Shown: in pieces, positions 7,443-63,817 of the stretch
Numbering within the stretch: the first letter of the stretch is position 1
How the letters are laid out: each line of letters opens with the position of its first letter
Notes under the pieces: model-generated
The model's input: the letters and a program-made list of their open reading frames with translations, nothing else
The model's database searches: none
Told to the model about the DNA's origin: nothing
From: an uncultured Desulfobacteraceae bacterium
Lineage (GTDB): Bacteria > Desulfobacterota > Desulfobacteria > Desulfobacterales > UBA5852
Length of the DNA: 64,000 bases
Assembly: GCA_913060875.1 (NCBI GenBank)
Contig: CAJXSL010000001.1
Span: 434,001-498,000, forward strand
Direction of reading: 5' to 3'
Program-made: the position numbers and the translations under genes

Positions 7443-7588
7443 TAGAAGCCATCTCAAAATTAGGGTTTTCGTTCGAGATCAAGGCGTGGCCGAGAATCAG
7501 CCCGCAGGCATACTCAAGTATGTCGAGGACTTGAGACGAGGACACAACGCCGATATCGGGCGAAAAAACATTTTTGAGATAGCTTCTA
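7443..7588. repeat. 146-bp palindromic element, copy A
   Basis: The ends are TAGAAGCCATCTCAAAA and its near-perfect inverse TTTTGAGATAGCTTCTA. The centre contains CATACTCAAGTATG next to TCGAGGAC. It is about 96% identical over its full length to copy B at 12210-12355, which lies in the opposite orientation (about six differences by eye). Its terminal TAG (minus strand, 7588-7586) is the stop codon of the Ntn hydrolase gene. Confidence 0.85.
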
Positions 7589-8866
7589 ATTGAATTGCAT
7601 ACTGTACAAACAGTCTCTAAGCGCTTCTGGGTGTGCCAATGATATGACAGAGGCGAAAATCAGCTTATCTTTGCGATAAGTTGATAAAATCAAAGTTTTT
7701 AATGCCCAGATATCATCCACCACAATGTCGAACAAAATTTCGACACTTGGCGTCCCATCCTTGAGAACAGTTTGCTTGCTTGAAACCAACTTTACATCCG
7801 TGCTGAATTCTTCGATTTTGCTGTAAAAATATTGCGGCCCAATATCATTCAACTGGATATCATCGGGTTTATCTTCCACGTAAACAGCAATTTGCGGCGT
7901 ATCGCCCAGAGGGTTTCTTACCCGCAATACTTCATTGGATGTTGGTTTTTTAATTTTATAATGTTTTGGGTAGGATATGCTGAAATCGGGTGACGAATGG
8001 GTATAAACCTGAATGTCATATTCCAATTCTTTACCAAACAACGAAGGCAGGTCATAATAATGACATCCTTTTTTTAATTCCGCATTCAGATTAAATGCAA
8101 TTTCATTGTCGAAATCGTGAAGAAAATATGCATAAATAAGCCCATTGGTTAAATCGTATATGTTACTATACTGTGTTGTTCCGATTATATTGTATGAGCT
8201 TCGATGTGTGGCCTTTAAAATTTTTCGGAAATTGGGCACTGTAGGTCCATCGCAATCTAAAAGCATCCTCTTTGCCCTTTTATATCGCGAACAACTCCAT
8301 GCCGGCGCTTCACAGGGCCATTGATCTTCTGGGATTCTTGATATTCGGAAATTGGTTACGACCTGGTAGCTGTCACGTTTTCGAACAATTGTCTCTCCTT
8401 CAATTATGGCAGCGTCACCGCTTTTATCAACGATGAACATTTGAGCTTTTGGATTCCAGTCGAGATTGTACATACTTAACATTTCAAGTACATCACCGAC
8501 GGTTGCACAATCTGCCATCATTGTATCGGTAAATGGCCCTGTAAACCGGGGTTTCTCTTCTGATTGCTTTATTCCCAACCATGGAACCGAGAAATAATCA
8601 AAGAACAGGCCCTGATCGTTCATGCCGCCCTGAGGGGACCAGTTATCGTAACCGAAATAGACCCTTCCAAACCGATTTTTTTCAGCAGGTATGAACCATA
8701 CTCTGGTGAAGGGTATTTTTGAGTCCTCGTTATTGCCGACAAGCACAACCTTCCCATCGGTCATCATGAATCCCGTGCAAGCTTGAACCGACGGGTTGGT
8801 AAGAACCATCGCAAGCCATATGGCTAAAACAATCGAATAATGCACAATATGATTTGTATTCATCAT
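7586..8866 (-). CDS. Exported linear-amide C-N hydrolase (Ntn, choloylglycine hydrolase/IAT type)
   Basis: 426 residues. The signal peptide ends at VQA and leaves Cys30 as the new N-terminus (CTGFMMTDGKVVLVGNNED). This is the N-terminal-nucleophile arrangement of penicillin V acylase, choloylglycine hydrolase and isopenicillin-N acyltransferase relatives. YFGYDNWSPQGGMNDQGLFF is the family's substrate-pocket block with the conserved Asn/Gly. The likely activity is hydrolysis of an amide bond in the envelope; the substrate (N-acyl amino acid, bile salt or similar) cannot be decided. The last codon and stop run into a 146-bp palindromic repeat. Confidence 0.8.
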   Translation of the reverse strand: MMNTNHIVHYSIVLAIWLAMVLTNPSVQACTGFMMTDGKVVLVGNNEDSKIPFTRVWFIPAEKNRFGRVYFGYDNWSPQGGMNDQGLFFDYFSVPWLGIKQSEEKPRFTGPFTDTMMADCATVGDVLEMLSMYNLDWNPKAQMFIVDKSGDAAIIEGETIVRKRDSYQVVTNFRISRIPEDQWPCEAPAWSCSRYKRAKRMLLDCDGPTVPNFRKILKATHRSSYNIIGTTQYSNIYDLTNGLIYAYFLHDFDNEIAFNLNAELKKGCHYYDLPSLFGKELEYDIQVYTHSSPDFSISYPKHYKIKKPTSNEVLRVRNPLGDTPQIAVYVEDKPDDIQLNDIGPQYFYSKIEEFSTDVKLVSSKQTVLKDGTPSVEILFDIVVDDIWALKTLILSTYRKDKLIFASVISLAHPEALRDCLYSMQFN

Positions 8867-12209: not shown

Positions 12210-12355
12210 TAGAAGCTATCTCAAAAAAGTTTTTTCGCCCTATATCGGCGTTGTGCCCTCGTCTCAAGTCCTCGACATACTACAGTATGCCTGCGGGCTG
12301 ATTCTCGGCCACGCCTTGATCTCGAACGAAAACCCTAATTTTGAGATGACTTCTA
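12210..12355. repeat. 146-bp palindromic element, copy B
   Basis: The inverse of copy A with TAGAAGCTATCTCAAAA and TTTTGAGATGACTTCTA ends. The central core is TCCTCGACATACTACAG followed by TATGCCTGCGG. It lies 27 bp upstream of the reductase start at 12182, so it may overlap that gene's promoter or leader. Confidence 0.85.
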
Positions 12356-29098: not shown

Positions 29099-30973
29099 CT
29101 ATTTTTCGCCTCCCAGGCGTTTCAATCGATCTCCCATGCTTTTGAAGAATCCTTTTTCCTGGTTGGCCCCATCGGAACCGGAAGCGGATTCGTCGTGCTT
29201 GTCGACGGTCACGCCTTTTTCGGCCGCTTGAATGGCGGACAGGCACGGGTTTTCATCGTCGGCACTGATCCCTGCCAGGGCGGCCGCGATGCCCACCGGC
29301 CCGAAGAGGGCGACGCCCCCGACCAGCTTACCCACCGTGATGGCACTCTCCGTGGGATCCACTTCCATGGCCGGTTCGGCCAGGGTCCCCCCGAGCCGGA
29401 AAGGTCGGGTCAGGCCGCCCAGGCTGATCACGCCCCTTTTGGGGGCCGGTTTGAGACCGATATCAAGGTGTTCGGTTTTAAGATCGATGCGGCCATCCCC
29501 CAGGATGCTGGTTTGGGGGGTGTCGATCACAAGATGCGTAATAGCCACCTGCCCCGCGTTGCTGTCCGTGCGCATCACCAGGCAGTTGATCGGCGTGCCT
29601 TGTTGGCGGGCGGCTTCCTGACCGAACATGCCCAGCAGCTGACGCGTAATGCCTTTGCTGAAAATCCCGAAAAAGCGGCCTTTGATATGCCCTTTGCCGG
29701 AGACCAATTGGGTATAGCCTCCCAGGCTGGCAGCCCAATCGGCGGTTGACCGGCCCTGCGCATTAAGGTCGATCCGGACATCGAGAATGCCTTCCAGACC
29801 TTCGCGCAGCCGGAGTTCCTTCATCATGAGCGCGGCATTCATCTGGGTAATGGTGAATTTGGCGCTGGCCCGGGGGGTTTTAGAACGGGCATCGATGGAG
29901 ACGCTACCGGATACGTCGCCGCCTCCGGCCACGGCGCTGATGGGATCAACCGTTAGCAACCCTTTGTCGAGTTGCAGGGTCATTTTGACATCTTTCAATG
30001 AGAATCGCGGTGTGAGCAGATGGGTTAGGTCCAGGTCCAGCCGACCGTCCAAAGCGCCCAGCGCGTCGAAGGGAAGGGGGGCTTTCGAAAAGATGCGTGC
30101 CGGGGATTTGGACCCCGTTCCCGTGTGGGTATTGGATCCCGAAGACGCCAGCCAGGGGCGCAGGTCCAGGCGTTCGCCCTGTACGGTAAGGCTCAATTCA
30201 GGCCGGTGGGCCATGTCCTGCGGCCTGGCGCTAATCGCTCCTTTCAGGGACAGGGTGTCGCCCTCGGTCTCAAGGCGAAAATCGAACGGCCACGGCCAGC
30301 GTTTACGGATAATGTGTCCGAACAGTTGCGAGGCGCCCTCCAGGGCGAACCGGCGGTCGTTATAGCGGCCTTCAAAGGTGCTTTTTACCGGCAGGGGGCC
30401 GGATTGGCGTTCGAGCCGTAATTGGGTGATATCAAAATTTTCAGTACGGCCATCCGCATGGTCCACCCAGCGAATATGGCCCTTTTCCACGGTAAGCCCT
30501 TCGAGGGACCATTTAAACTCGGCATTGTCGGTGGGGGGGGCGTCGGAAGGCGTCGGGGTCGGTGCGGATTCCGCAGGAGGCGGCGGCTCCCAGTTGAAAT
30601 TGCCGGTTCGGGCGGCCTGCTCGATCAGGATGTCCGGTTCCACCAGGCGCAATTCCAGGATTTCCAGCGCGTGGTTCCAGAGGGCCCAAAGACCGATTTG
30701 GATTTCCAGCCGTTTGACCGTCAGCATGTCGGGCCTGGATCCCCACGAGGCATTTTGCAGGCGGATGTTTTCCGCCGTCAGCGTGGGAGGCAGGCGCAGC
30801 CGGATGGCAAGATCGCCTTCGATATCAAGCTTTTTCCCCAGCAGGCTTTGGGTCTGATCGGCGATCAGGGGCTTCAGGCGGTTGTAGTCGTAGGTTGCCG
30901 CCCACCACAGCAAACCGATCAGCACCAAACCGAAAAGGGCGCTGATGACAATGGCAATGGTCTTCCATTTCAT
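29099..30973 (-). CDS. AsmA family protein
   Basis: 624 residues. One N-terminal membrane segment (about 7-29, IAIVISALFGLVLIGLLWWA) is followed by a long extracytoplasmic part. The AsmA N-terminal block (LIADQTQSLLGKKLDIEGDL) and C-terminal AsmA-like repeats (VDTPQTSILGDGRIDLKT-type, AINLGGL-like) are present. AsmA proteins are inner-membrane-anchored bridge-like proteins linked to phospholipid traffic and outer-membrane assembly. A Pro/Thr-rich linker is at about 132-150. It stands 64 bp downstream-strand from the kinase gene start. Confidence 0.85.
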   Translation of the reverse strand: MKWKTIAIVISALFGLVLIGLLWWAATYDYNRLKPLIADQTQSLLGKKLDIEGDLAIRLRLPPTLTAENIRLQNASWGSRPDMLTVKRLEIQIGLWALWNHALEILELRLVEPDILIEQAARTGNFNWEPPPPAESAPTPTPSDAPPTDNAEFKWSLEGLTVEKGHIRWVDHADGRTENFDITQLRLERQSGPLPVKSTFEGRYNDRRFALEGASQLFGHIIRKRWPWPFDFRLETEGDTLSLKGAISARPQDMAHRPELSLTVQGERLDLRPWLASSGSNTHTGTGSKSPARIFSKAPLPFDALGALDGRLDLDLTHLLTPRFSLKDVKMTLQLDKGLLTVDPISAVAGGGDVSGSVSIDARSKTPRASAKFTITQMNAALMMKELRLREGLEGILDVRIDLNAQGRSTADWAASLGGYTQLVSGKGHIKGRFFGIFSKGITRQLLGMFGQEAARQQGTPINCLVMRTDSNAGQVAITHLVIDTPQTSILGDGRIDLKTEHLDIGLKPAPKRGVISLGGLTRPFRLGGTLAEPAMEVDPTESAITVGKLVGGVALFGPVGIAAALAGISADDENPCLSAIQAAEKGVTVDKHDESASGSDGANQEKGFFKSMGDRLKRLGGEK

Positions 30974-32076: not shown

Positions 32077-33795
32077 ATGGATGCGAACAGACCCTGGCTT
32101 ACCTATTACGGCGATGTCCCCCACCAAATCGATTACCCGAACGTTACCATGTACGAAGCGCTGGCGCAGACGACAGCGCGCTGCCCGGAAGCGGTGGCCT
32201 ATGATTTCTTCGGCACCACGGCCACCTACCGGCAATTTCTGGCGGAGATCGATCGCTGTGCCGCTGCCCTGTCCGCGCTGGGGCTCGAACAGGGGGAGCG
32301 CATGACCATTGCCATGCCCACCTGCCCCCAGGCGGTGATTTGCTTTTACGCCGTGAACAAACTGGGGGCGGTGGCCAGCATGATTCACCCCCTGTCCACC
32401 GCCACCGAGATCGCCTTTTACCTCAACCTGAGCAAGAGCCGTTTTGCCCTGACCCTGGACGCGTTCTACAGCAAGTTCAAAGCCGTACAGAACAGCACGA
32501 CACTGGAAAAGCTAGTTCTGGCGCGGATTCCCGATTACCTGCCTTGGCTTAAACGCCTCGGGTTCAACCTGACCAAAGGGCGCCAGATTCCCAAAGTCCC
32601 GGAGGATGCCCTGGTGGTCTGGTGGCAGGCCATGATGTCCCAAACCCACCCGCAATCCGCGCAGGGCAGTGCCGGATTCGAGGACCTGGCCGTGATTCTC
32701 TACAGCGGCGGCACCACCGGCAAGCCCAAGGGGATCATGCTGTCCAACCGCAATTTTATCTGCGAGGGCAAGCAGGTCTCGGCCTGGGGGGATTTGACCG
32801 GTGATGATGCCATTCTGGCGATTCTTCCCGTGTTTCACGGTTTCGGTCTGGGCGTCTGCATCAATGCCGCTTTCATGGGCGGCGCCAAAAGTATTATGGT
32901 GCCCCAGTTCACGCCTGAAGATGTGGCCAAATTGATCCGCACCAAGAGACCCAACTTCATCATCGGGGTGCCGACGCTCTACGAAGCCCTTAATCGCAGC
33001 AAGGTTTTCCAGCAAACCGATCTGAGCTGCATCAAGGCGGCTTTTTGCGGTGCCGACACCCTGCCGCGGCGGGTCAAAGAACGCTTCGAGGCCGTTGTAA
33101 GCCAGCGGGGCGGCGATACCCAGTTGCGCGAAGGCTATGGCCTTACGGAGGCCGTGACGGCGATCATGGCCATGCCCATGACCGAATACCGCGAAGGGAG
33201 CGTGGGGGTGCCGTTTCCGGACATGGATGCCAAGATCGTCCGGTCCGGCACCACCGAGACCCTTCCCCCCGGAGAGGAAGGCGAGATCTGCATCAGCGGT
33301 CCGGCCGTCATGATGGGCTATCTGGAGCAGCCCGAGGAAACCGCCAAAACCCTCCAGCAGCATCCGGACGGAAAGACCTGGCTGCACACCGGGGATATCG
33401 GCACCATGGACGACGACGGATTTTTCTATTTCCGCCTGCGGGAAAAACGGATGATCAAATCGTCGGGCATGAACGTCTACCCGGCCCAGGTGGAAGAGCA
33501 GTTGTATAAACATCCGGCGATTCAGGAGGTGTGCATCATCGGCGTGCCGGATGCCAAGCAGGTGGAACGGGTCAAGGGCTTCGTGGTACTGAAAGATTCC
33601 AGCCAGGCCGGACCGGCCATGGAAAAGGAATTGATCGATTTTTGCCGTCGGGATCTGATCAAGTGGAGCTGCCCGCGGGAGATCGAGTTCCGCACGGAGC
33701 TGCCCCTGACCCTCGTGGGGAAAGTGGCCTTTGCGGAACTGGCGGCCGAGGAAGCCGCCAAACAGAAGATGGAAACCGACACAAACCCGGCCTGA
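32077..33795 (+). CDS. AMP-dependent acyl-CoA synthetase
   Basis: 572 residues. Signatures: LYSGGTTGKPKGIMLSNRN (A3), REGYGLTEAVTAI (A5), HTGDIGTMDDDGFFYF (A7), REKRMIKSSGMNVYPAQVEE (A8) and a C-terminal Lys in PLTLVGKVAF (A10). It forms an acyl-CoA from a free acid via the acyl-adenylate. GAGGAG-like bases lie 14-19 nt before the ATG. First gene of the run with the two dehydratase subunits, the BASS transporter and the activase; it probably loads the acid imported by that transporter. Confidence 0.88.
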   Translation: MDANRPWLTYYGDVPHQIDYPNVTMYEALAQTTARCPEAVAYDFFGTTATYRQFLAEIDRCAAALSALGLEQGERMTIAMPTCPQAVICFYAVNKLGAVASMIHPLSTATEIAFYLNLSKSRFALTLDAFYSKFKAVQNSTTLEKLVLARIPDYLPWLKRLGFNLTKGRQIPKVPEDALVVWWQAMMSQTHPQSAQGSAGFEDLAVILYSGGTTGKPKGIMLSNRNFICEGKQVSAWGDLTGDDAILAILPVFHGFGLGVCINAAFMGGAKSIMVPQFTPEDVAKLIRTKRPNFIIGVPTLYEALNRSKVFQQTDLSCIKAAFCGADTLPRRVKERFEAVVSQRGGDTQLREGYGLTEAVTAIMAMPMTEYREGSVGVPFPDMDAKIVRSGTTETLPPGEEGEICISGPAVMMGYLEQPEETAKTLQQHPDGKTWLHTGDIGTMDDDGFFYFRLREKRMIKSSGMNVYPAQVEEQLYKHPAIQEVCIIGVPDAKQVERVKGFVVLKDSSQAGPAMEKELIDFCRRDLIKWSCPREIEFRTELPLTLVGKVAFAELAAEEAAKQKMETDTNPA

Positions 33796-33860
33796 TGCCC
33801 ATCATCCAGCCGGACAGGCGACCGTACAACGGGCGTGATTTCGGAAAAAGGAGTACCACC

Positions 33861-34982
33861 ATGGAAGCGATGCAGCCGTTTCATGATATTGCCGCCGATC
33901 CCAAAGCCTATGCGCGTGCTTGGAAGGAAAGAACCGGCGGGAAGGTGATCGGGACCCTGTGTTCCTATGCGCCGGAGGAATTGATCCTGGCCGCTGGTGC
34001 CCTGGGGTTCCGCATCGTGGGGGGCAGCGGGGCCATCTCCAAGGCCGACGTCCACCTGCAGGCCTACAGTTGCAGCCTGGTGCGCGGCGCCCTGGAGGAT
34101 GCCCTCGACAACCAGTTGGATTTTCTGGACGGGGCCGTCTTTCCCCATACCTGTGATTCCATCCAGCGATTGTCCGATATCTGGCGTATGAACGCCAAGA
34201 CCGGATTCCATCTGGACGTGGTGCTGCCCGTCAAGCTGAACACCGCCAGCGCGCGGGACTACATGACGGCGGTCATGGCCAAAGCCCGCTCCGAACTGGG
34301 AGGGATGCTGGGGCAGACGATTGCGGACGACGATATCCGCCAGGCCATCGATACCTACAACCGCATCCGCGCCAAGATGGAAACCCTCTACACCCTGCGG
34401 CGGGACTGCCCCGGCGTGATCGCCGGAGGCGATGTTCACGCGATTACCCGGGCGGCCATGGTGATGGATCGTCACGATTTTCTCAAGGGGCTTTCCAAAG
34501 TCGTCGATGGGGTGTCGGCGGCCGCCAAGGCCTTTTCAGGTCCTGATCCCAAGCGCATTTTTCTTTCCGGCGGGGTTTGCAACCTGCCCGACATTTATGG
34601 CCCCATCGAGGCGTCCGGCGGCGCGGTGGTGGGCGATGACCTGTGCACCGGATCGCGCCAGATGCTGGGGGCCATCGATGACCAGGACGATTTGATCGAA
34701 GCCATCGGCCGACGCTACATGGAACGGGCGGTCTGCCCGGCCAAGCATGCCGGTATACGAACCCGGGGGGAAGAACTTGTCCGTCGGGCGCGGGCGGCCA
34801 AAGCCCAGGGCGTGATCTTCCTGTATTTGAAGTTTTGCGACCCGCACGCTTTTGACTATCCTTATTTGAAAGACATGCTGACGGCCGAGGGCATTCCCAC
34901 GCTCCTGGTGGAACTGGAAGAGCAGACCGCCTCGGACGGCCAGTTTCAGACGCGGTGTGAGGCGTTTATGGAAATGCTCTAA
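33861..34982 (+). CDS. 2-hydroxyacyl-CoA dehydratase / benzoyl-CoA-reductase-type subunit (BcrC/HgdB-like, first)
   Basis: 373 residues from the ATG at 33861; AAAGGAG lies 7 nt upstream. The HGD-D family blocks are visible: VIGTLCSYAPEELILAAG (Cys34), LQAYSCSLVRGALEDAL (Cys71) and VFPHTCDSIQRLSDIW (Cys98), the three expected 4Fe-4S ligands, and C-terminal IFLSGGVCNLPDIYG. The partner subunit is at 35201. The enzyme family uses one electron, activated by an ATPase, to remove a hydroxyl from 2-hydroxyacyl-CoA or to reduce an aromatic ring. The stop codon lies inside a 146-bp repeat. Confidence 0.9.
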   Translation: MEAMQPFHDIAADPKAYARAWKERTGGKVIGTLCSYAPEELILAAGALGFRIVGGSGAISKADVHLQAYSCSLVRGALEDALDNQLDFLDGAVFPHTCDSIQRLSDIWRMNAKTGFHLDVVLPVKLNTASARDYMTAVMAKARSELGGMLGQTIADDDIRQAIDTYNRIRAKMETLYTLRRDCPGVIAGGDVHAITRAAMVMDRHDFLKGLSKVVDGVSAAAKAFSGPDPKRIFLSGGVCNLPDIYGPIEASGGAVVGDDLCTGSRQMLGAIDDQDDLIEAIGRRYMERAVCPAKHAGIRTRGEELVRRARAAKAQGVIFLYLKFCDPHAFDYPYLKDMLTAEGIPTLLVELEEQTASDGQFQTRCEAFMEML

Positions 34983-35125
34983 AAGCACTCTCAAAAAAGT
35001 CTTTTGGTTCCATATCGGCGTTGGACGCGCGCTTCAAATCCTCGAAATACGAGCGTATTCCTCCGGTTTGAATCGTGCTTCCGCCTTGATCTGAAACCAA
35101 AATCCAAATTTTGAGAGTGCTTTTA
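34980..35125. repeat. 146-bp palindromic element, copy C
   Basis: The ends are TAAAAGCACTCTCAAAA and TTTTGAGAGTGCTTTTA, a perfect inverted repeat. The core is ATCCTCGAAATACGAGCG followed by TATTCCTCCGGTTTGAA. Same length as copies A, B and D although the arms differ in sequence. Its first three bases are the stop codon of the dehydratase first subunit. It separates the two dehydratase subunit genes. Confidence 0.85.
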
Positions 35126-39012: not shown

Positions 39013-39090
39013 CAGGCTTCAACCGCCCGTGCCCCGCGGCCCCCACGGGCCTTCCCTGCGCGTCGTCGGTGCAGCTGGAGCACGCCTCGC
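39013..39090. repeat. GC-rich dispersed repeat (CGCGTCGTCGGTGC type)
   Basis: ACCGCCCGTGCCCCGCGG and CCCTGCGCGTCGTCGGTGC recur at 45066-45130 with small changes; the second half of that unit (CCGCCGATGCTCGGCGCGGG) recurs at 45190-45235 and 41783-41803. No coding content recognised. Confidence 0.55.
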
Positions 39091-39117
39091 TGGTCCGCCG
39101 AAGGTTGACCGCAGGAA

Positions 39118-39195
39118 TAGTGGCCTATTGCGAGAATTTCAAAAAAGCGAAAACGCCGCTCGGGGCCAAAAGATGCCGTTTATGGATGGACACTA
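39118..39195. repeat. Short palindromic element of the TAGTG/CACTA family, copy F (78 bp)
   Basis: TAGTGGCC at the left and GCCGTTTATGGATGGACACTA-like right end, the latter matching the ends of copies D (63672-63817) and E (53575-53801). It looks like an internally shortened member. It ends 1 bp before the ThiF gene's stop codon. Confidence 0.6.
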
Positions 39196-40311: not shown

Positions 40312-40588
40312 TTTATTCGGTCCAGAAAACCTGGTCCTGTGGGCCAGGTCAGAGATAATTGGCTCCGCCGTAATCGTCGTATAGGAATTCAGGAGCCAGA
40401 ATCCAGAATTCAGAATAAGGTTTTCGCCTTCGGCGCATTCGATTTTTTTCAAAAGACGGAGCGAAGCGACATCAAAATCCTTCTGGCTCCTGAATTCTGT
40501 CTTCTGACGCCTATTGTTTCTTGCGATTGGAGCATCCCCCCTTCCAGGGGGAACCCAAAGCCAGGTCCTCCGGGCCCGGATATATACT
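40312..40588. repeat. 278-bp dispersed direct repeat, copy 2
   Basis: Nearly identical to 25353-25630 and in the same orientation, from TTTATTCGGTCCAGAAAACC to CGGGCCCGGATATATACT. It includes CAGGAGCCAGAATCCAGAAT units. It lies upstream of the MoaD gene start. The remaining 40589-40837 shows no gene and leads to the epimerase at 40838. Confidence 0.8.
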
Positions 40589-53574: not shown

Positions 53575-53801
53575 TAGTGTCCGTCCAGAAATAGCATCTT
53601 TTGGCCCCTGGAGGCGTTCTCGCCTCCTGTCGGTCCTCGGCTTAGCCGGGCTGCGCATCGCTGTCGCTCCCACGGCCTAGCCGTCCGGCGCCAGTCGGCT
53701 GCGCTCTGTTGAACACCATTTGATCTTAAAGATCAGGCGTGAAATCCCGCGCTTTGCGGCGGGGCCAGGAACCAAAATCTACCATTTCTGGGCGGACACT
53801 T
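53575..53801. repeat. Palindromic element of the TAGTG/CACTA family, copy E (about 227 bp)
   Basis: TAGTGTCCGTCCAGAAATAG and the matching CTACCATTTCTGGGCGGACACT ends fit copy D. The interior is longer and different, with GTCGGTCCTCGGCTTAGCC and CGTGAAATCCCGCGC. It lies between leuC and lepA. Confidence 0.7.
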
Positions 53802-63671: not shown

Positions 63672-63817
63672 TAGTGCCCATCCGTAAATGGCATCTTTCG
63701 GCCCCTGGCGGCGTTCTCGCGCGTTTTCAATCCTCGAAATAGCGGGCTATTCCTCCGGTTTCAAACGCGCTCGGGCCTTGCCAGGAACCAATATCTACCA
63801 TTTAGGGACGGACACTA
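63672..63817. repeat. 146-bp palindromic element, copy D
   Basis: TAGTGCCCATCCGTAAATGG left end; the right end, inverted, is TAGTGTCCGTCCCTAAATGG. The centre is ATCCTCGAAATAGCGGGCTA followed by TTCCTCCGGTTTCAA. Exactly 146 bp like A, B and C, although the ends belong to a different sequence subfamily. Confidence 0.8.

Follow-up and report, generated by a model that had tools for sequence, protein, structure and literature searches.

Palindromic mobile elements of Desulfobacterota with a hairpin core matching that of ERIC repeats

The window analysed here, a stretch of 64,000 nucleotides, contains four palindromes of equal length with dissimilar ends around a common inside, which raises the question of what kind of element they represent and what keeps their inner part similar. 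Elements A (7443..7588, better-folding strand +), B (12210..12355, −), C (34980..35125, −) and D (63672..63817, −) are indeed, as a sequence-only reading of this DNA had stated, each 146 bp long with TA at both ends, and each of these imperfect palindromes folds as one long hairpin. A and B carry TAGAAGC-type ends and are 96% identical, inverted relative to each other; C has TAAAAGC-type ends and is 73–74% identical to A and B, and D, with TAGTGTCC-type ends, resembles the other three in the core only. A covariance model of the core built from Desulfobacterota copies without ERIC (R1) matches A at 7470-7561 (+, 77.4 bits), B at 12237-12328 (−, 74.6 bits), C at 35007-35098 (−, 87.7 bits) and D at 63700-63790 (−, 71.4 bits). 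The proposed unrelated end types were confirmed, since D contains the inner part of A, B and C within different ends and at least four end-types exist across the family. The sharing of the centre is also real, but it extends over a core of ~106 bp (element positions 21–126) rather than the centre alone, and the terminal TA, although present, is target-site sequence, namely, TA in A/B/C-type elements and part of TANNTA in D-type ones. The terminal TAA of C (34980-34982) is the stop codon of an open reading frame at 33531-34982 (+) and the terminal TAG of A (7586-7588) that of another at 7586-8866 (−); because the TA end supplies the stop codon, TA-targeted insertion at such a site keeps the gene intact. 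A weaker palindrome at 40375-40525 of the window, with CAGGAGCCAGAATCCAGAATTCAG / CTGAATTCTG..GGCTCCTGAATTC arms, is unrelated to the 146-bp family.

Two further members of altered length had been proposed, and matches to D identify both as D-type. The first is a 227-bp copy with a central insert of ~80 bp (53575..53801, −), in which D 1-49 aligns at 53575-53623 and D 109-145 at 53764-53800, and whose 5'-half resembles locus L089 from another genome. The second, placed by that reading at 39118-39195, is only part of a truncated copy at ~39106..39195 (+) that has kept one arm and the tip and lost the other arm; D 1-88 aligns at 39195-39108 with 78% identity, and R1 gives a weak match at 39083-39166 (13.2 bits, E 0.31).

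On the better-folding strand, a terminal repeat of ~20 bp is followed by ..TTTTGGTTC.., motif 2 (CAAGGC), a variable arm and the tip, after which come the complement of the arm, motif 2' (AACGC(C)G), ..GGGCCAAAA.. and the other terminal repeat. The tip, CCGSAGGMATA-loop-TATKTCGAGGA, and the internal loop CAAGGC/AACGC are kept throughout the family, AAGG and AACGC being near-invariant, and near-invariant non-Watson-Crick positions occur in both tip and motif 2. In C, invariant alignment columns place the tip, CCGGAGGAATA-cgctcg-TATTTCGAGGA, at 35039..35066 (−), and A, B and D have its equivalent at their centres; in A, the alignments place the 5' side of motif 2, CAAGGC, at 7480..7485 (+), facing AACGCC at ~7546-7551. 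One and the same core is found inside several different end-types: GAAGC..TCTCAAAA with TA as target sequence, GTGTCCRTCCAKAAATGG with the target duplication TANNTA, GAGACCTTTGCAAAA with a 5-bp target duplication and, in this genome, a further type, GAATTGCTCCAGAAA. The length, which had been described as fixed, is strongly modal at 146 bp (30 D-type copies of this genome, with two of 148 bp, and 17 of 21 B-type copies), but elements of 144-152 bp occur in other genomes, most other families measure 142-150 bp, and inserts next to the tip lengthen some elements to ~174, 213, 222 or 227 bp. TCCCGC..GCGGGA hairpin inserts lie just outside the tip, at the same place in the 222-bp B-type and the 213-bp D-type forms (L250:13655-13870, L247:15600-15840, L031 and L035). 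Two other readings of the structure were rejected: minus-strand coding (GFWFKIKAEA../EYFEDLKRAPN..), because the frame is broken at the loop and stops occur in D- and E-type copies, and a Xer/dif-like reading of the 11+6+11 tip, because the spacer length is variable and the arms co-vary.

A search of genome and phylum with a covariance model of the copies, suggested by the sequence-only reading, revealed a family far larger than expected by chance. R1 detects at least 123 copies in this genome of a sulfate reducer (G000, 5.88 Mb; 150 candidates scored), and the terminal inverted repeat pattern has 160 matches there versus two for a reversed control. Near-identical copies are present at unrelated sites, some of them 99% identical; that of element B at G000:C7:267808-267953 has 99.3% identity. 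Homologous copies are present in other genomes of the order, and R1 matches were obtained in 99 of the 395 genomes sampled from the phylum (E≤1e-6). Most named records that contain the tip pattern belong to the Desulfobacterales, among them the Olavius algarvensis Delta symbionts, with a minority of Rokubacteria, Planctomycetota and Selenomonas records, which, being based on metagenome-assembled genomes, could include mis-binned contigs. The Selenomonas records (L109, L200 and L218) contain a 166-168-bp palindrome with the same tip and GGGCGTGTTGATTAA ends, and L218 is also matched, at 19.3 bits, by a covariance model built from ERIC copies only (R2). The plasmid collection searched contained no near relatives, and the viral contigs searched gave one match. 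Copies show no orientation bias along contig C1 (15 versus 17), and their neighbour genes are ordinary, with no enriched family and no partner gene.

These elements are mobile DNA without genes of their own. The 6-bp TANNTA duplication of D-type copies is perfect in 14 of 32 copies in this genome (at most seven in 2000 shuffles) and in 10 of 43 from other genomes (shuffled maximum four). TAGAAGC/B-type copies duplicate nothing beyond TA, and GAGACC-type copies in other genomes are flanked by the 5-bp duplications AGAAC, TGGAC, AAAGC and ATAGC. At two syntenic loci, the copy of this genome is missing in a sister species (G003); element A is absent from G003 too, but there the left flank is also different, so that the site is not a clean empty one. 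Terminal inverted repeats, target duplication, short length, multiple copies, recent mobility and the lack of an internal transposase gene are all features of MITEs.

Which enzyme moves them? The sequence-only reading had suggested looking for a transposase with matching ends, and none was found in searches of this genome and the collected loci. G000 encodes no PF13358 protein (the IS630 partner) and a single PF01609 protein (L101), which lies at a contig edge without matching ends, and 0.93 Mb of loci contained no IS with paired ends. Two end pairs considered as autonomous copies, one of 1.7 kb in L150 and one of 3.2 kb at C1:213655-216889, proved to be separate short elements flanking host genes. 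Despite its at least 123 copies, the genome is nearly devoid of DDE_Tnp_1/DDE_3 proteins, and its mover may have been lost, be very rare or be unassembled. The terminal repeat of ISNme1, a member of the IS5 family, is identical to the GAGACCTTTGCAAAA end-type found elsewhere (PMC4596501), which supports involvement of IS5-family enzymes for this end-type, as judged from sequence identity. The elements are MITE-like in that their lengths vary through inserts and GAGACCTTTGCAAAA equals the ISNme1 repeat. Identity with MITEs of a known IS, raised earlier as the contrary possibility, applies to one end-type. No one IS accounts for the whole family, as a single core lies within several end-types whose target duplications differ.

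Known since 1990-91, ERIC repeats are in wide use for the typing of bacteria. In the elements studied here, tip and motif 2 resemble the ERIC1R and ERIC2 primers; the comparison with ERIC was prompted by this likeness and was thus not blind, though the reciprocal models are independent of it. R1 recognises ERIC copies of Salmonella (24.1 bits, E 3.6e-6), Providencia (19.7 bits), Kosakonia and Citrobacter (16.6), Klebsiella (up to 15.8 bits) and Rahnella (13.3), all in one strand and register, and in an unfiltered search of 49.5 kb of Kosakonia plasmid the sole ERIC ranks first (16.6 bits, the next match having 11.8). On the other hand, ERIC copies like those of E. coli K-12 score weakly with the cross-model, at 4-8 bits, or are absent among the matches listed. 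In the opposite direction, R2 yielded two matches over 464 kb of G000 (E up to 10), both of them family members in the same register: L249:12324-12415 (29.5 bits, E 1.2e-4) and element A (20.6 bits). Over 459 kb of loci from relatives (E up to 1), all four R2 matches are family elements. Unfiltered in the window, R2 ranks A, C (16.8 bits, second) and B (15.1 bits) in the first three places, although D (14.4 bits) ranks only seventh. A joint alignment of the elements with ERIC shows the common AAGG, tip GAG/TA and AACGC, and G000 holds a copy with an ERIC-type tip, GGAGCATAC..GTATGTGA. The family, for which the sequence-only reading knew no name, thus shares its core with ERIC/IRU repeats.

ERIC elements are 127 bp long, with TA ends, a TA duplication and an unknown mover (PMC2759123, PMC2229807), and have been reported from Enterobacteriaceae and Vibrionaceae (PMC10969869); in the literature searched, mostly papers free of subscription, we found no report of relatives beyond Gammaproteobacteria. 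The likeness to ERIC/IRU/RU-1 concerns the imperfect palindrome of similar size, the intergenic location, tens to hundreds of copies, the lack of a known mover, and, in TAGAAGC-type elements, the TA ends and TA duplication, TAGTGTCC-type elements having TANNTA instead. Furthermore, the internal loop AAGGCGG/CCAACGC is found on the same strand in the same order and spacing, the tip is of the same kind (AGGAGCATA..TATGTGA in ERIC), and the same strand folds better. By contrast, the elements measure 146 rather than 127 bp, their terminal repeats (GAAGC.. or GTGTCC..) are unrelated to that of ERIC (TATACYCTAAATAATTCRAG), their end-types number at least four and their target duplications include TANNTA and 5-bp forms, and their hosts are Desulfobacterota (named relatives being Desulfobacterales and others), not Enterobacterales or Vibrionaceae. 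Although no transposase with matching ends was found, we consider it likely, with a probability of roughly three in four, that the elements are non-autonomous palindromic transposons and that they and the ERIC/IRU repeats known from Enterobacterales and Vibrio belong to a single superfamily.

The ends and arms of the family have diverged to unrelated sequence and are still palindromic. In a set of 38 diverse cores, the proportion of paired cells is 92.5%, versus 73.8% after shuffling and 23-48% in slid registers. Double-sided changes affect 23 of the 32 core pairs, with a covariation score of 0.496 (0.154 shuffled, at most 0.126 slid); none of 500 shuffles and no slid register reaches any of these measures. 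The compensatory changes anticipated by the sequence-only reading are accordingly present, and the absence of covariation that would have spoken against it was not observed. As related sequences can inflate covariation scores, an arm-swap test was added, using 32 families with arms less than ~62% identical. Pairing with the own partner was about twice as good as with a foreign one in every arm third (−13.1/−11.9/−18.1 versus −5.8/−6.7/−7.2 kcal/mol). Together, covariation and arm-swapping in these diverged families support selection for the palindrome, as that reading had suggested. Recent D copies, however, contain 33 one-sided singletons versus three compensated changes, which fits decay after insertion, with selection acting on spreading lineages only.

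An alternative is that these are ordinary IS-derived MITEs, the palindromy of the ends arising because one transposase must fit both, that of the inside through template-switch correction of quasi-palindromes, and the ERIC likeness through convergence of GC-rich hairpins. The IS5-family repeat of one end-type (PMC4596501), the target duplications that differ by end-type and the lack of a G.U over A.C excess at Watson-Crick pairs are all compatible with this possibility. Yet correction would erase the tip and loop mismatches, which persist, and would make double-sided changes common, contrary to the ratio in recent D copies; moreover, the ends change while tip and loop remain, and the reciprocal ERIC model matches in register. 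We therefore regard this explanation as improbable.

The same strand folds better in 73 of 74 copies and, outside motif 2, in 27 of 32 diverged families (p=1e-4), which suggests selection on single-stranded RNA, and the elements may have an RNA function. At strand-neutral Watson-Crick pairs, there is barely any excess of G.U over A.C (cells 71:57 and 74:48; singletons about equal, 14:11 and 13:12), so the strand difference is due to positions of fixed asymmetry and to purine-purine mismatches. The strand preference, together with the purine-rich internal loops, could also indicate a structured cis-acting RNA, akin to a 3' UTR or terminator, kept by the host at each site. In Yersinia, ERIC transcripts are reported to act on mRNA stability in one orientation (PMC2229807), and the Rfam families V_AS5 and Ysr49 match ERIC on the better-folding strand. 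Nevertheless, sister species differ in which copies they possess, private changes among the G000 copies are of a neutral kind (GU 10, AC 11), so that changes after insertion look neutral, and the better-folding strand is not co-directional with tandem neighbour genes (11 with, 23 against). The avoidance of open reading frames (94 of 100 copies lie outside them) and the absence of a sense-orientation tendency speak against a general cis-regulatory role, and we consider host-maintained RNAs of this kind quite improbable. The Rfam matches of V_AS5 (Vibrio RNA AS5) and Ysr49 (Yersinia sRNA) cover ERIC whole-length, below the gathering score, at L309:79-202, L312:81-202 and L313:59-182, and both families, judging by sequence, seem to be ERIC copies that are transcribed and were catalogued as RNA genes; the elements themselves match no Rfam family at gathering score, all other matches being at chance level.

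REP/REPIN-type elements moved by RAYT (Y1) enzymes on single-stranded DNA would likewise be dispersed intergenic palindromes with a strand-specific hairpin, and Y1 proteins are common in the order, but REPs are GTAG/CGTC-tagged units of 20-40 bp tied to RAYT rather than 146-bp elements with target duplications, which IS200/IS605 enzymes are not known to make, and no Y1 protein is encoded in G013 (96% complete, ~200 candidate copies), G002 or G004, so that presence and absence across genomes rule out a Y1 link and leave this option a negligible probability.

Other known systems are similar in part. IS5-derived MITEs of Neisseria (ATR, BrickBuilt) share the GAGACCTTTGCAAAA end-type, which is the ISNme1 repeat (PMC4596501), but this likeness concerns some end-types only, and the core crosses end-types and is not known IS sequence here. 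Correia/NEMIS, RUP and RPE are likewise short palindromes with TA ends that cannot move autonomously (PMC2229807); no tip or loop in common with them was noticed.

Under the preferred reading, a superfamily of non-autonomous transposons that includes ERIC, the outer ~20 bp on each side would serve as terminal inverted repeats for a transposase acting in trans, and the several end-types with TA, TANNTA or 5-bp duplications imply that several transposases are probably involved. The inner ~100 bp would fold into a hairpin whose tip and internal loop stay constant while the arms drift by paired changes. During propagation, a factor of the host or of the transposition machinery may recognise this core as a folded strand, either RNA or extruded or single-stranded DNA; copies would later decay without further selection. 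The ends would thus choose the transposase, and a second requirement common to all end-types, possibly that the transcript or one DNA strand must fold, would preserve the core. A tentative extension, which we regard as possible but doubtful, would make ERIC a branch of a superfamily distributed over several phyla (Desulfobacterota, Gammaproteobacteria and, by tip pattern, Selenomonadales). Spread would then be driven or licensed by a folded hairpin module, recognised in single-stranded form, and the ends would be exchanged to suit the transposase present in the host.

Two repeat groups not previously known to be related are now linked, and ERIC is joined by a second branch, which is highly mobile and has several end-types and recent copies. 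In this branch, the ends, as the part that a transposase would read, can be told apart from the tip and loop, which are kept for another reason, and this turns the mover of ERIC and the conservation of its core into testable questions. A further palindromic family with GGCGGCTTTGTAAATCG ends, represented by G000:C1:216942-217090 (L250:16942-17090), contains motif 2 but has a tip of its own, GAGGCGTAC..GTACGCCGCAGC; one old copy occurs in both G000 and G003 at the syntenic site, and many copies are found in G003. The long palindromes L241 (G000:C1 ~30172-30322) and L245 (G000:C1 ~111450-111600) also combine motif 2, in the form GCGTTATC..GATGCCTTGC, with another tip, and motif 2 may therefore exceed the tip in spread.
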